A DNA stretch of 34,687 nt from Salinarchaeum sp. GTDB taxonomy: Archaea; Halobacteriota; Halobacteria; Halobacteriales; QS-1-68-20. Each line of letters opens with the position of its first letter. Within the stretch, counting starts at the first letter, position 1. Made by a program: the position numbers and the translations under genes. Below the pieces are notes generated by a model that saw nothing but the letters and a program-made list of their open reading frames with translations, had not been told where the DNA came from and did not search any database. Location of the stretch: assembly GCA_007122875.1 (NCBI GenBank), contig SKSS01000088.1:1-34687 (forward strand), given 5' to 3'. This document shows, piece after piece, positions 11,469 to 18,282 of the stretch.

Positions 11469-12005
11469 TCAGACCAACCCGGCCACGTCCTCCGTGAACG
11501 CCTCCACATCGTCCCAGTTCGTGTACTCGTAATCTCGCGACGTGTCGGTGTCTCCGCCGGCAGCGCTGGCGATCCGCTTCATCACGAACCGCTTGATGCG
11601 GCCGTACTGGCTATACTTGAGCGCGCCCGCGACGGCGAACGTTCGGTCGGGGTTCCAGCCCGTTTCGTCGAGGAACCGTTCGAGCATCTCCCGTACCGTC
11701 TCGCGGGCTTCGGGATCCGACTCGGCCGCCGTGAGGCTCACCGAGAAGAACGCCGATGGCGTTCGGTTCAGGTCGTCGACGTGTGTTCGAACGAACCGGG
11801 TGACGTACCGCTGATGTTTCCCGACGTGGATCGACGCGCCGACGACGGCGGCGTCGTACCCCGAGAACGAGAACCCCTCCGGCGGATGCCGCGCGTGGAT
11901 CAGCGTCACGTCGTGACCGCGCTCGTCGAGTCCGTCCCCAATCCGCTCGGCGATCGTCGCGGTCTGTCCCTCGCTCGACCCGTAGACGACGGCGATCCGG
12001 GCCAT
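11469..12005 (-). CDS. hemG: Flavodoxin-domain protein, HemG-like protoporphyrinogen oxidase family
   Basis: 178 residues from the ATG at 12005, which overlaps the upstream gene's stop (ATGA). It has the flavodoxin fold: the FMN phosphate loop YGSSEGQTATIAERI at the N-terminus, then AAVVGASIHVGKHQRYVTRF and SAFFSVSLTAAESDPEA, which are characteristic of the HemG subgroup (menaquinone-dependent protoporphyrinogen IX dehydrogenase), and a C-terminal YGRIKRFVMKRIA helix. In HemG this helix region helps membrane and quinone interaction. Archaeal members may act on another substrate, as the haem routes differ. It is probably co-transcribed with the LLM oxidoreductase. Confidence 0.8.
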   Translation of the reverse strand: MARIAVVYGSSEGQTATIAERIGDGLDERGHDVTLIHARHPPEGFSFSGYDAAVVGASIHVGKHQRYVTRFVRTHVDDLNRTPSAFFSVSLTAAESDPEARETVREMLERFLDETGWNPDRTFAVAGALKYSQYGRIKRFVMKRIASAAGGDTDTSRDYEYTNWDDVEAFTEDVAGLV

Positions 12006-12991
12006 CACCGATCACCGCCCCGTTCACGGTCGAGGTGTGGAAGCACGTCATCCCCGAACGTCTCGATGAACGCCCCTTGATTCCGGCAGACGTCGTGCAG
12101 GACGACCCGATCGACGTCGAGGTCGAGATCCCGGCGAAGCCACGTCACGTGCTCGTCGGGATTTGCGGAGACGCGCACGTTCTCTGCGACCTGCTCATCG
12201 TCGATCCCCTCGGCCAGCTCGTCGTACTCCGCCGGCGTTCGCAGTTCCTGTGTCACCGGTCCCGGCACGCAGTTCGTCCGCCACTGGTCGTGCGCCCCGT
12301 CGATCGCAGTCTTCTCATCCTCGGCGTACGCCAGTTGCACCTTGAGCGCGATCGGCTTCTTCGGGGCGTGCTCGCGAAACGCCTCGACGCGCCCGGCGAC
12401 GGCGTCGTGATCCGGCGTGGCGATCGTAATCAGCCCGTCGACCCACTCACGCTCGCCCAGCCAGCGGGCGGTCGCTTCGGACAGGGCAGCTCCGTACAAC
12501 GGTGGGGGCGAGTCGGGCCGGCTGTAGAGTCGCGCCCGTTCCGCGGTGATTCGCCCGTGGTGGGTCACCTCCTCGCCATCCCACAACCGGCTCATGACCT
12601 CGGCGGACTCCTCCAGTCGGGCGTTGCGTTCGTCCTTCGGCGGCCATCGCTCACCCGTGATCCCCTCGTTGAGCAGTTGGCCGCTCCCGACCGACAACCA
12701 GAACCGCTCCGGATACAGCGAGCGGAGCGTCGCGGCCGCCTGTGCGACGACCGCCGGGTGGTACCGATAGCCCGGCGCGTTGACCGTCCCGAACGGCAGC
12801 GAGGTCGCCTCCATCGCGGCTCCCAACCAGGACCAGACGTGCCCCGATTCGCCCTGGCGTTCGCTCCACGGATGGAAGTGATCCGACGCCAGCACGCCGT
12901 CGAAGCCGTGATCCTCGGCATGCTGGACGTACGCCAGCAACTCGCTCGGCGAGAACTGTTCGTGTGAGGCGTGGTAGTAACACTCGGTCAT
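12005..12991 (-). CDS. LLM-class flavin/F420-dependent oxidoreductase
   Basis: 328 residues. It is a luciferase-like monooxygenase TIM barrel of the F420-dependent glucose-6-phosphate dehydrogenase-like group. The N-terminus has HASHEQFSPSELLAYVQHAE and the cofactor motif ASDHFHPW, followed by GTVNAPGYRYHPAVVAQAAA, RFWLSVGSGQLLNE (with an 'N' turn after the glycines) and a C-terminal ENVRVSANPDEHVTWLRR. These fit the TIGR03885-type family. F420 rather than FMN is likely as cofactor in an archaeon, but this is inferred. The substrate is unknown. It is translationally coupled to the HemG-like flavodoxin (4-base overlap), suggesting a shared redox role. Confidence 0.87.
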   Translation of the reverse strand: MTECYYHASHEQFSPSELLAYVQHAEDHGFDGVLASDHFHPWSERQGESGHVWSWLGAAMEATSLPFGTVNAPGYRYHPAVVAQAAATLRSLYPERFWLSVGSGQLLNEGITGERWPPKDERNARLEESAEVMSRLWDGEEVTHHGRITAERARLYSRPDSPPPLYGAALSEATARWLGEREWVDGLITIATPDHDAVAGRVEAFREHAPKKPIALKVQLAYAEDEKTAIDGAHDQWRTNCVPGPVTQELRTPAEYDELAEGIDDEQVAENVRVSANPDEHVTWLRRDLDLDVDRVVLHDVCRNQGAFIETFGDDVLPHLDRERGGDR

Positions 12992-15573: not shown

Positions 15574-15825
15574 CCGAACCGATTCGAGGACGGTTGCTCG
15601 GTCAGTCCGGCCGTTTTCCGACGAGGGGAGAACTTCCGTCCTCCCGGTTCAGGACGAGGGGACACCATCGCTCGTCCGTTGGCTTAAAAAATATCAGTAA
15701 TTTGATGTTAGGTGTGAGCTGAACTTGTAGAGCGAACGCTGCGCACAGTATGAGCGAGTCTCATATGTTGCACAGTACTTTCAAAGAGTATTTACAATCC
15801 GACAGACGACACGACGTGATCACCC
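15574..15825. other. AT-rich promoter region of the halogenase-like gene
   Basis: From about 15680 this stretch is much richer in A/T than its surroundings. It contains GGCTTAAAAAATATC (about 15681-15695), an ATGAG-CGAGT-CTCAT dyad (about 15752-15766) and a TATTTACAAT box near the start codon. No gene is seen. Confidence 0.5.
15789..15798 (+). promoter_or_regulatory. TATA-like box for the halogenase-like gene
   Basis: TATTTACAAT, centred about 32 bases before the GTG start at 15826. This leaves a leader of only a few bases. Confidence 0.5.
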
Positions 15826-17451
15826 GTGAAGTCCAGATATGATGTAGTCATCGGCGGGAGCGGCATAGCCGGCTCGGCTGCTTCGATGATCCTCGCTGAC
15901 AATGACCTCGATGTCCTGATGATCGAAGCGAAAAAACATCCACGGTTTGCGATCGGCGAGGCGATGTTACCGCTGAGTGCGGTGTGGATGTGGATCGTCG
16001 GCGAGTACTTCGATATTCCAGAGATAAGACACATCAGCGACGCCAATAAGATCGTCGATAACATAACCCGATCCTGCGGGGTCAAACACTCGGTGGGGTT
16101 TGCGTACCACGAACGGGAGCATCCGCTCAGTGGCGAGCACGTCCATCAACTGGTTCCCCCGGAGATGCCCTTTTACAAAGAGAGTCATCTCGTCCGCGAA
16201 CACATCGATCACTACCTGGTTCAATCCGCTGAAACCTACGGCGTGGAGTACGTCGACGAAACGCCAATCACTGACGTCGAGATCAACGACGACGACGTGA
16301 CGGTGACCACCAGTCAGGGGACGACGACGGGAACCTTCTTCATCGATGCGACGGGTGGTAACTCAATTCTCGCCGAGAAGATGGGGTACCGAGACGAGAC
16401 GCCGGATCTAGAGACGAACACTCGGGCGATTTTCACACACGTCGAGGGACTCGACCCGTTCGACGATCTGATCGACGACGCGCATCTCCCCGACCAAACG
16501 AACCAATTGCACGACGGGACGCTCCATCACGTCTTCGATGGTGGCTGGATGTGGGTCATCCCGTTCGATAACTTCGAGCGCTCGGAGGAAACGAAAGCGA
16601 GCGTCGGACTCATGCTCGACCGGGACGCCCACCCCCGTGACGACACGCTCACTGCAGAGGAGGAGTTCTACGGAATCATTTCGTCGTATCCCGACATCGA
16701 TCGACATCTCGAGCCAGTTGAGCCGGTGATGCCGTGGATCCGAACGGGCCGGTTACAACGAAGTGCCTCCAAGTCGACCGGCCACCGGCATCTACTGACC
16801 AATCACACCTACGGATTCGTCGACCCACTCTACTCGCAGGGCCTGATCCACACGTTCGAATCGGTGTTCCGGTCGATGACCCTTCTCCTGGAGGCGTTCG
16901 AGGAAGACGACTTTTCTGCCGATCGGTTCACGCCGATCGACGACCTCCACCGAAGACAGCTGAAAACGGCGGATCTGCTCGTAAGCAACGCCTACATCTC
17001 GACGAGTGAGTTCGATCTGTGGAACGCCTGGACGCAGCTCATACTCGCCGAATCGGTGTTACCCGACCTCTACGTCCAACGATCCTGCCTGAAGTATCTC
17101 TCGTCAGGGGAGACGGCTGAATTCGATCACTTGCTTCAGGAGACCCGACCGGGAGATGACGCGCCGTTCGCCCCCGAAAGGGATGCGTTGTTAGAACGGT
17201 TCTCCGAGCTACTCGCTGCCTATGCCGACGGAGAGGTCGAGGGAGACGAGGCGACCCACTCACTCTTAGACGAGTTGACACAGGTCGACTGGCTCCCCAA
17301 AAACGTCTACGACTGGGGGAACGAGGACGCACGCCATATCGACTTCGCGGATCCGGAGCTCACCGCCGAACTGCTCGCCTGGGGGCAAACGGACGCGCCA
17401 GCACACATCCGTGAGGGACTGTTCGACTTCGAGATGCCGGAACTGATGTAG
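15826..17451 (+). CDS. Flavin-dependent halogenase-like FAD monooxygenase
   Basis: 541 residues, GTG start. The FAD-binding motif VVIGGSGIAGSAAS is at 8-20, followed by the family-typical HPRFAIGEAMLP (38-49). All three motifs used to recognise flavin-dependent halogenases are present: GxGxxG-type (GGSGIAG), WxWxIP (WMWVIP at 241-246) and FxxPxxSxG (FVDPLYSQG at 331-339). Lys87 in CGVKHSVGF sits where the catalytic lysine of tryptophan halogenases (K79 of PrnA) falls. The C-terminal 150 residues are helical and unrecognised. WxWxIP is thought to suppress ordinary monooxygenation so that HOCl or HOBr is formed. The substrate is unknown and no flavin reductase lies next to it. A non-halogenating relative remains possible. 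It ends 12 bases from the convergent FilR1 regulator. Confidence 0.75.
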   Translation: MKSRYDVVIGGSGIAGSAASMILADNDLDVLMIEAKKHPRFAIGEAMLPLSAVWMWIVGEYFDIPEIRHISDANKIVDNITRSCGVKHSVGFAYHEREHPLSGEHVHQLVPPEMPFYKESHLVREHIDHYLVQSAETYGVEYVDETPITDVEINDDDVTVTTSQGTTTGTFFIDATGGNSILAEKMGYRDETPDLETNTRAIFTHVEGLDPFDDLIDDAHLPDQTNQLHDGTLHHVFDGGWMWVIPFDNFERSEETKASVGLMLDRDAHPRDDTLTAEEEFYGIISSYPDIDRHLEPVEPVMPWIRTGRLQRSASKSTGHRHLLTNHTYGFVDPLYSQGLIHTFESVFRSMTLLLEAFEEDDFSADRFTPIDDLHRRQLKTADLLVSNAYISTSEFDLWNAWTQLILAESVLPDLYVQRSCLKYLSSGETAEFDHLLQETRPGDDAPFAPERDALLERFSELLAAYADGEVEGDEATHSLLDELTQVDWLPKNVYDWGNEDARHIDFADPELTAELLAWGQTDAPAHIREGLFDFEMPELM

Positions 17452-17463
17452 CGCGAAGCGACG

Positions 17464-18282
17464 TCATTCGTAATCGACGTTCCGTTGCTCTGCCGTGTCC
17501 ATCCACGTCTCTAGCGGCTGTGACTGATCGAGGTACTGCGCATAGAGTTCGCGAGCCCATTCGAGTGCCTCTGGATTCGCCGTATCAACGAGTGCACGCG
17601 GATGGCCGGTCCGTTCGTCGTGAACGGTGAACGTAAGCCGGTGATCGAACACCCCCAGCTGGACGGGAATCGATTCACGGGTGATCCGCATTCGTGCGTT
17701 CGGCTCCTCCAGCCACAGTGAGGCAGCCTCCGGATAGCGTTCGAGATACTGCGCAGCTGCTGTTGGTGTCCAAATGCTTTCTACCTCGACGTCACCGCGG
17801 AGCTGTGGTGTGATCCCCTCGACGATGTCGGGTGGGACAGCACCGATGCTCCGAACGCCACGTACACGCTCTGTGTCGTTCCACAGTTCGAGATAGCGCT
17901 CGTGCATCCGGTACGGCTCTTCGGACGTCGCCATCGTCACAGTCGACCCTTCGAGCAGGCGAATGTCAAACGCCACTGGACAGGCGTAGAGCTGTTCGAC
18001 GAGTTCCGGAAGCTGAGCTGCGACGTGCAGCTGGTGACAAACGCTCTCTACCTCCTCGAGGACGACCGTTCCAAACTCCGTAAGCGCGTGTTCGCCGTTC
18101 GTCGTCGTACTGAGACCGGCCTCACGGACGGCTGCCAGATGGCGATTGGTCGTTGCTCGTGACTGGTCGAGCCTTCGTTCGAGCTGCTGACTCGTGAGAC
18201 GTTCGTGCTTCCGGAGAGCGGTCAGCAGCTCGTGATGACCGACGACGGTTTCCGTAAGTTCGATGCCCCGGTCGGCGTCCAT
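17464..18282 (-). CDS. HTH transcriptional regulator with FilR1 domain
   Basis: 272 residues from the ATG at 18282. The frame is open further to 18498, but the added residues are Arg/Ser/Pro-rich and unconserved. An N-terminal winged HTH (about 10-75: HHELLTALRKHERLTSQQLE, QSRATTNRHLAAVREAGLS) is followed by the C-terminal FilR1/DUF1724-type domain (about 120-255: GSTVTMATSEEPYRMHERYL, RGVRSIGAVPPDIV, LGVFDHRLTFTV). The family contains archaeal regulators of cell morphology and motility and many unassigned haloarchaeal ones. It is convergent with the halogenase-like gene. A regulatory link is suggested only by adjacency. Confidence 0.85.
   Translation of the reverse strand: MDADRGIELTETVVGHHELLTALRKHERLTSQQLERRLDQSRATTNRHLAAVREAGLSTTTNGEHALTEFGTVVLEEVESVCHQLHVAAQLPELVEQLYACPVAFDIRLLEGSTVTMATSEEPYRMHERYLELWNDTERVRGVRSIGAVPPDIVEGITPQLRGDVEVESIWTPTAAAQYLERYPEAASLWLEEPNARMRITRESIPVQLGVFDHRLTFTVHDERTGHPRALVDTANPEALEWARELYAQYLDQSQPLETWMDTAEQRNVDYE

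Follow-up and report, generated by a model that had tools for sequence, protein, structure and literature searches.

The open reading frame at positions 15,826–17,451 (+ strand) of the window, by which we mean the whole 34,687-nucleotide stretch of Salinarchaeum sp. contig SKSS01000088.1 that was analysed, can be explained with good confidence as coding for a PltM/CtcP/PrnC-class halogenase dependent on FADH2, which would act without a local biosynthetic gene cluster, belong to a lineage of bacterial origin and form a small transferable module together with the regulator that very probably controls it. What the analysis shows is the sequence with its catalytic residues, the predicted fold, the conservation and purifying selection, the gene pairing and the phylogeny, whereas the activity, halide, substrate, reductase partner and regulation are inferred. 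While the enzyme class is already known, its stand-alone, regulator-paired arrangement in haloarchaea is a new element. A preliminary description of this DNA had called halogenases little known in archaea. This holds in so far as no experimentally characterised archaeal flavin-dependent halogenase was found in the literature searched (most subscription journals being outside its coverage), but RefSeq already labels two haloarchaeal relatives, and according to a 2026 preprint (PMC12871659) Archaea do have flavin-dependent halogenases.

Identification of the halogenase

The frame starts with GTG, is free of internal stops and codes for 541 amino acids. The three marks from which the preliminary description had recognised a halogenase are all in place: a GxGxxG-type FAD loop (GGSGIAG, residues 10–16), which is the predicted FAD site, WMWVIP (241–246) and FVDPLYSQG (331–339). 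The latter two represent the WxWxIP and Fx.Px.Sx.G motifs, interpreted here after PMC8407142, and K87 and E119 are further marks of the protein. A search with PF04820 (Trp_halogenase), the Pfam profile named in that description, gave 53.8 bits for a cut-off of 21. No NCBIfam model scored over its cut-off, the best partial matches being to the GG-reductase superfamily and the CmlS halogenase. Amongst solved structures (phmmer, PDB), the best match is the tetracycline 7-halogenase CtcP (E = 6e-88), followed by the phenolic halogenase PltM (E = 5e-78), both over nearly the full length, with ChlB4, PltA, CmlS and Mpy16 (5buk) amongst the next matches. The PF04820 score and the near-full-length matches to CtcP and PltM indicate that the marks are not due to chance. 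The motifs are retained throughout the clade according to the alignment, with some drift: Ala replaces Ser of FxDPxYS in one haloarchaeal subclade, and Leu replaces Pro in one member.

An AlphaFold2 model built from 27 sequences (mean pLDDT 92, pTM 0.92) fits the CtcP-FAD crystal structure from end to end, with a TM-score of 0.92 and an rmsd of 2.0 Å over 535 columns. The TM-score is 0.81–0.86 for PltM, against 0.53 or less for the hydroxybenzoate and kynurenine monooxygenases listed. It follows from the CtcP and PltM fold matches that the C-terminal helical region (beyond residue ~400) typical of this class is included. Assignment to the PltM/CtcP/PrnC class rather than to the tryptophan class, and with it the proposal of an archaeal flavin-dependent halogenase of predicted activity, is therefore well supported by homology and by the predicted fold. 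The closest characterised relatives (CtcP, PltM and PrnC) are halogenases, not the monooxygenases or ketoreductases considered earlier as possible next of kin. A single-component halogenase with a fused reductase was rejected, as the 541 residues are wholly covered by the CtcP fold and contain no reductase domain.

The region upstream of the gene (15,700–15,825, + strand) contains a short AT-rich element, AAAGA-RTATTA, which is common to the five loci of the window's subclade in an alignment of their upstream regions and might be promoter-like. The same five-locus alignment showed no clear operator motif beyond this element.

The contig is archaeal and chromosomal: the ribosomal proteins S2 and S9, RNA polymerase subunit D, enolase and aIF2-beta encoded on it identify it as a piece of an archaeal chromosome. 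These housekeeping genes, the acidic character of the halogenase (D+E 19%, like its haloarchaeal relatives) and its 80% identity to the Halobellus rufus copy exclude contamination or misassembly, and the intact frame together with low dN/dS excludes a pseudogene. The halogenase has a GC3 of 0.73–0.74 and the regulator one of 0.66, against a mean of 0.81 (s.d. 0.05) for the genes of the window. No second close copy of the halogenase is present in the genome's own assembly (1.9 Mb, 60% complete).

Distribution and phylogeny

A homologue was found in 16 of 393 other Halobacteria genomes, with a patchy distribution which, counting the window's own genus, extends to 11 of 87 genera. Fifteen of these carriers, amongst them Halobellus rufus, Halorussus amylolyticus, Natronobiforma cellulositropha, Haladaptatus and several Haloferax, have sequences 59–80% identical over almost the whole length. 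The remaining one, genome G082, has a remnant (G082:C4:94841-95329) corresponding to residues 377–539 only, which indicates that the halogenase has been lost in some lineages. Pairwise dN/dS values of 0.07–0.22 point to purifying selection, and hence to a gene kept for a function.

In trees, the haloarchaeal halogenases form one group (81/90), joined to a sequence from a Balneolales MAG with support of 100/100. This set is nested within a branch of bacteria that also holds Nostoc, Myxococcales and Euzebyales and is separate from the one containing the actinobacterial, CtcP, PltM and PrnC sequences; the long branches leave the exact bacterial neighbour uncertain. The simplest reading of these sequence relations is that the gene moved from bacteria, probably halophilic ones, to haloarchaea, and then amongst haloarchaea. 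The viral contigs contained no relative of the halogenase.

The paired regulator

Convergent with the halogenase gene lies a gene for an HVO_A0261/FilR1-type regulator (17,464–18,282, − strand), combining an HVO_A0261_N winged helix-turn-helix domain (PF25213, 46 bits) with a FilR1_middle domain (PF08350, 98 bits). Its frame extends to 18,498 (344 amino acids), and its homologues begin at the ATG at 18,282 (272 amino acids). A PDB search gave no sequence match for it. A regulator of this type adjoins the halogenase at every one of the 18 haloarchaeal loci inspected (window, G106, Halobellus, Halorussus, Halostagnicola, Natronobiforma, Halomontanus, G215, G328, Haladaptatus, G277, five Haloferax, G217 and G329), with one large gene in between in G217. 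For five loci (window, Natronobiforma, G215, G217 and Halomontanus) the domains were confirmed with Pfam, and membership in the others relies on a genome search with PF25213, RefSeq annotation (Halostagnicola) or sequence similarity. The Halomontanus locus was examined after the rule had been noticed, and the neighbour annotated there as "hypothetical protein" proved to belong to the same regulator family. The orientation of the two genes varies (convergent, divergent or on the same strand), and the other neighbours of the halogenase differ from locus to locus.

About 1.2% of genes code for regulators of this family. The chance of finding one within two genes of the halogenase in 12 of 12 contexts is about 1e-16, or 5e-6 if only the four subclades are counted, both estimates being rough since the contexts share descent. 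In a tree including 37 background regulators, the linked regulators and four unlinked relatives occupy a single region of the family (94/95), where the linked ones group by halogenase subclade, each subclade having its own regulator type or types. The Balneolales halogenase has an AraC-type regulator gene upstream in place of the FilR1-type one. Judging from adjacency, the FilR1-type regulator very probably controls the halogenase, and we propose that the two genes constitute a small transferable module.

Very large proteins (1500–2100 amino acids) are also encoded beside or near regulators of this subfamily, both halogenase-linked and unlinked (L044:3268-7977, L092:1-5094, L093:6028-10536, L046:13025-19303 and L028:636-6989). 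The one from L044 carries GLUG, CARDB and CarboxypepD_reg repeats, and those from L092 and L093 are alike at their start. They are a possible second target of these regulators.

Gene neighbourhoods

Comparison of the haloarchaeal neighbourhoods revealed no PKS, NRPS or other shared biosynthetic genes. The bacterial relatives were found in the following surroundings: pyrrolnitrin-type genes in Azotobacter, NRPS/PKS-type genes in Sandaracinus, and P450s, a benzoate-CoA ligase and a salicylate synthase in Chroococcidiopsis. The 44%-identical halogenase of Nostoc favosum (L035:8980-17310) is clustered with an indole-glycerol-phosphate synthase (IGPS), a P450, a beta-eliminating lyase, an FAD monooxygenase and an O-methyltransferase, a set reminiscent of halogenated-indole pathways. 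In actinobacteria, a PKS-like protein of ~1800 amino acids (so named from the start of its sequence, not from a profile) is followed by several halogenase genes. The clusters concerned (L037:4515-15103, L036 and L038) have three consecutive halogenase-like genes after it, the third copies being 26–27% identical to the window protein.

The tailoring role that the relatives in bacteria have within natural-product clusters gives weight to the idea that the haloarchaeal enzyme, too, tailors an endogenous metabolite, the genes of whose pathway would be unlinked or dispersed. This is a real possibility, although one short of an even chance, for the haloarchaeal loci have no biosynthetic gene in common.

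An AhpD/CMD-like protein of 194–195 amino acids is encoded beside the halogenase–regulator pair in Natronobiforma (L032:11873-12457), Halomontanus (L097:9116-9703) and G277 (L048:7084-7671). The three sequences share 81–89% identity, and the genomes searched yielded no further close copy. This protein is a second, optional partner of the halogenase. Its presence next to the pair in three contexts, the constant pairing of the enzyme with a regulator of ligand-binding type in surroundings devoid of biosynthetic genes, and a patchy, partly plasmid-borne distribution that includes the truncated G082 remnant would also suit an inducible single-gene response. The regulator would then sense an aromatic compound from outside (an antimicrobial, a quinone or a pollutant) and turn on the halogenase, by which that compound would be inactivated or modified. 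The enzyme would be the same and would serve detoxification or chemical warfare instead of biosynthesis. Halogenation for detoxification is however unusual, and we consider this explanation doubtful, if still worth weighing.

As for the supply of reduced flavin, a two-component mechanism is supported by the Euzebyales homologue (42% identical), whose gene overlaps one for a PF01613 flavin reductase. No dedicated flavin reductase is linked to the halogenase in the haloarchaeal loci, and no PF01613 member was found in the 60%-complete genome to which the window belongs. Of eight relatives, seven have one or two PF01613 proteins and one, the complete G277 genome, has none; FMN_red (PF03358) proteins, of which G000:C34:10924-11346 is an example, are present both in the window's own genome and in G277. 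PltM was purified and assayed alongside the unrelated reductase SsuE (PMC6424973), which suggests that a general cellular reductase may suffice. About 3 kb from the halogenase, a flavodoxin-domain protein (window 11,469–12,991, − strand), a possible candidate for a redox partner, is encoded beside a TIGR03885 LLM-class flavin/F420 oxidoreductase.

Active site and substrate

K87 aligns with K87 of PltM, K98 of CtcP and K97 of PrnC, and this lysine is shared without exception by the 33 homologues in the alignment, CtcP, PltM and a PrnC amongst them. The K87A mutant of PltM is inactive (PMC6424973), K98 of CtcP is described as a conserved catalytic lysine (PMC12400496) and K97 of PrnC has been proposed as a key residue (PMC10770391). 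The alignment therefore favours the role of putative catalytic lysine which the preliminary description had given to K87. E119 corresponds to E115 of PltM and to E129 of PrnC, the latter belonging to a proposed triad (PMC10770391). The third triad residue (E49 in PltM, E60 in PrnC) is replaced by L50; this position is Leu in the window enzyme and its nearest subclade, and Gln in the other haloarchaea and in CtcP (Q61). Since CtcP also has Gln, this second glutamate does not define the class. S410 corresponds to S404 of PltM, and putting a bulky residue in place of S404 blocks the substrate. Other haloarchaeal subclades have a hydrophobic residue at this position, which suggests that the substrate pocket probably differs between subclades.

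CtcP (PDB 7v0b and 7xgb; 31% identity over 512 residues) shares the full-length fold with the C-terminal helical region, the lysine (K98), WxWxIP and FxDPxxSxG, but its pocket differs at Q61 (L50 in the window enzyme), R349 (Q338) and W456 (D445), and it belongs to the chlortetracycline pathway with a reductase of its own, CtcQ, whereas the window gene has neither cluster nor linked reductase. PltM (PDB 6bza), a phloroglucinol and phenolic halogenase with 33% identity over 455 residues, has its lysine at the same number and the counterparts of E119 and S410, but differs at E49 (L50) and N405 (V411), and its gene lies in the pyoluteorin cluster. For PrnC, the monodechloroaminopyrrolnitrin halogenase, identity is 33–35% with the gene of the Azotobacter prn cluster and related Burkholderia plasmid genes. 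The residues equivalent to K97 and E129 of its proposed triad are kept, whereas E60 is Leu and the prn cluster context is absent.

The missing second glutamate, the replacement of Ser by Ala in one subclade and the general PF01266/GGR-like similarity could be taken to mean that the protein is a flavin monooxygenase or other oxidoreductase of halogenase descent which no longer halogenates. This is improbable: K87, E119 and WxWxIP, a motif reported to block monooxygenation (PMC8407142), are kept under purifying selection, and the nearest characterised enzymes all halogenate.

The proteins from Halostagnicola larsenii (WP_084569102.1, 74% identical) and Halomontanus rarus (WP_276256768.1, 62% identical), both plasmid-borne and with the same paired regulator, carry the RefSeq product name "tryptophan 7-halogenase", but a genuine enzyme of that kind is very improbable and the name is unsupported as a statement about the substrate, since PrnA/RebH-type tryptophan halogenases are absent from the 19 PDB sequence matches and the best 50 fold matches, and the substrates of the closest enzymes are phenol, tetracycline and pyrrole. 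The substrate is more likely to be a phenolic or other electron-rich aromatic than tryptophan.

Discussion

The window enzyme very probably chlorinates or brominates small aromatic molecules. In the proposed mechanism, a separate, general cellular flavin reductase would provide FADH2, which would react with O2 to form a flavin C4a-hydroperoxide. This would oxidise chloride or bromide to HOX, which would pass through a tunnel lined by WxWxIP and FxDPxxSxG, and K87, with E119, would steer it onto an electron-rich aromatic ring, the likeliest being a small phenol or a similar compound. The enzyme would function without a local biosynthetic cluster. Haloarchaea live in habitats with molar chloride, and the natural product would be expected to be chlorinated there, unless the enzyme prefers bromide. 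Nothing in the analysis speaks for pigments as products, which the preliminary description had also considered.

The most specific form of our proposal is that haloarchaea acquired from bacteria a cluster-free module of two genes, whose halogenase modifies the very aromatic compound sensed by its FilR1-type regulator. We put this forward tentatively, and it is unlikely to hold in every part. The regulator–halogenase pair nevertheless offers a direct handle, as the ligand of the regulator should point to the substrate of the enzyme, and several carriers are culturable, including Haloferax, a genus with established genetics. Should the module be real, C-halogenation in an archaeon by a flavin halogenase would, within the literature searched, be shown for the first time, and this enzyme class would gain a new physiological role. 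If the enzyme is active, haloarchaea would be linked to natural organohalogen formation in brines, and their halogenases would be a possible source of salt-tolerant biocatalysts.
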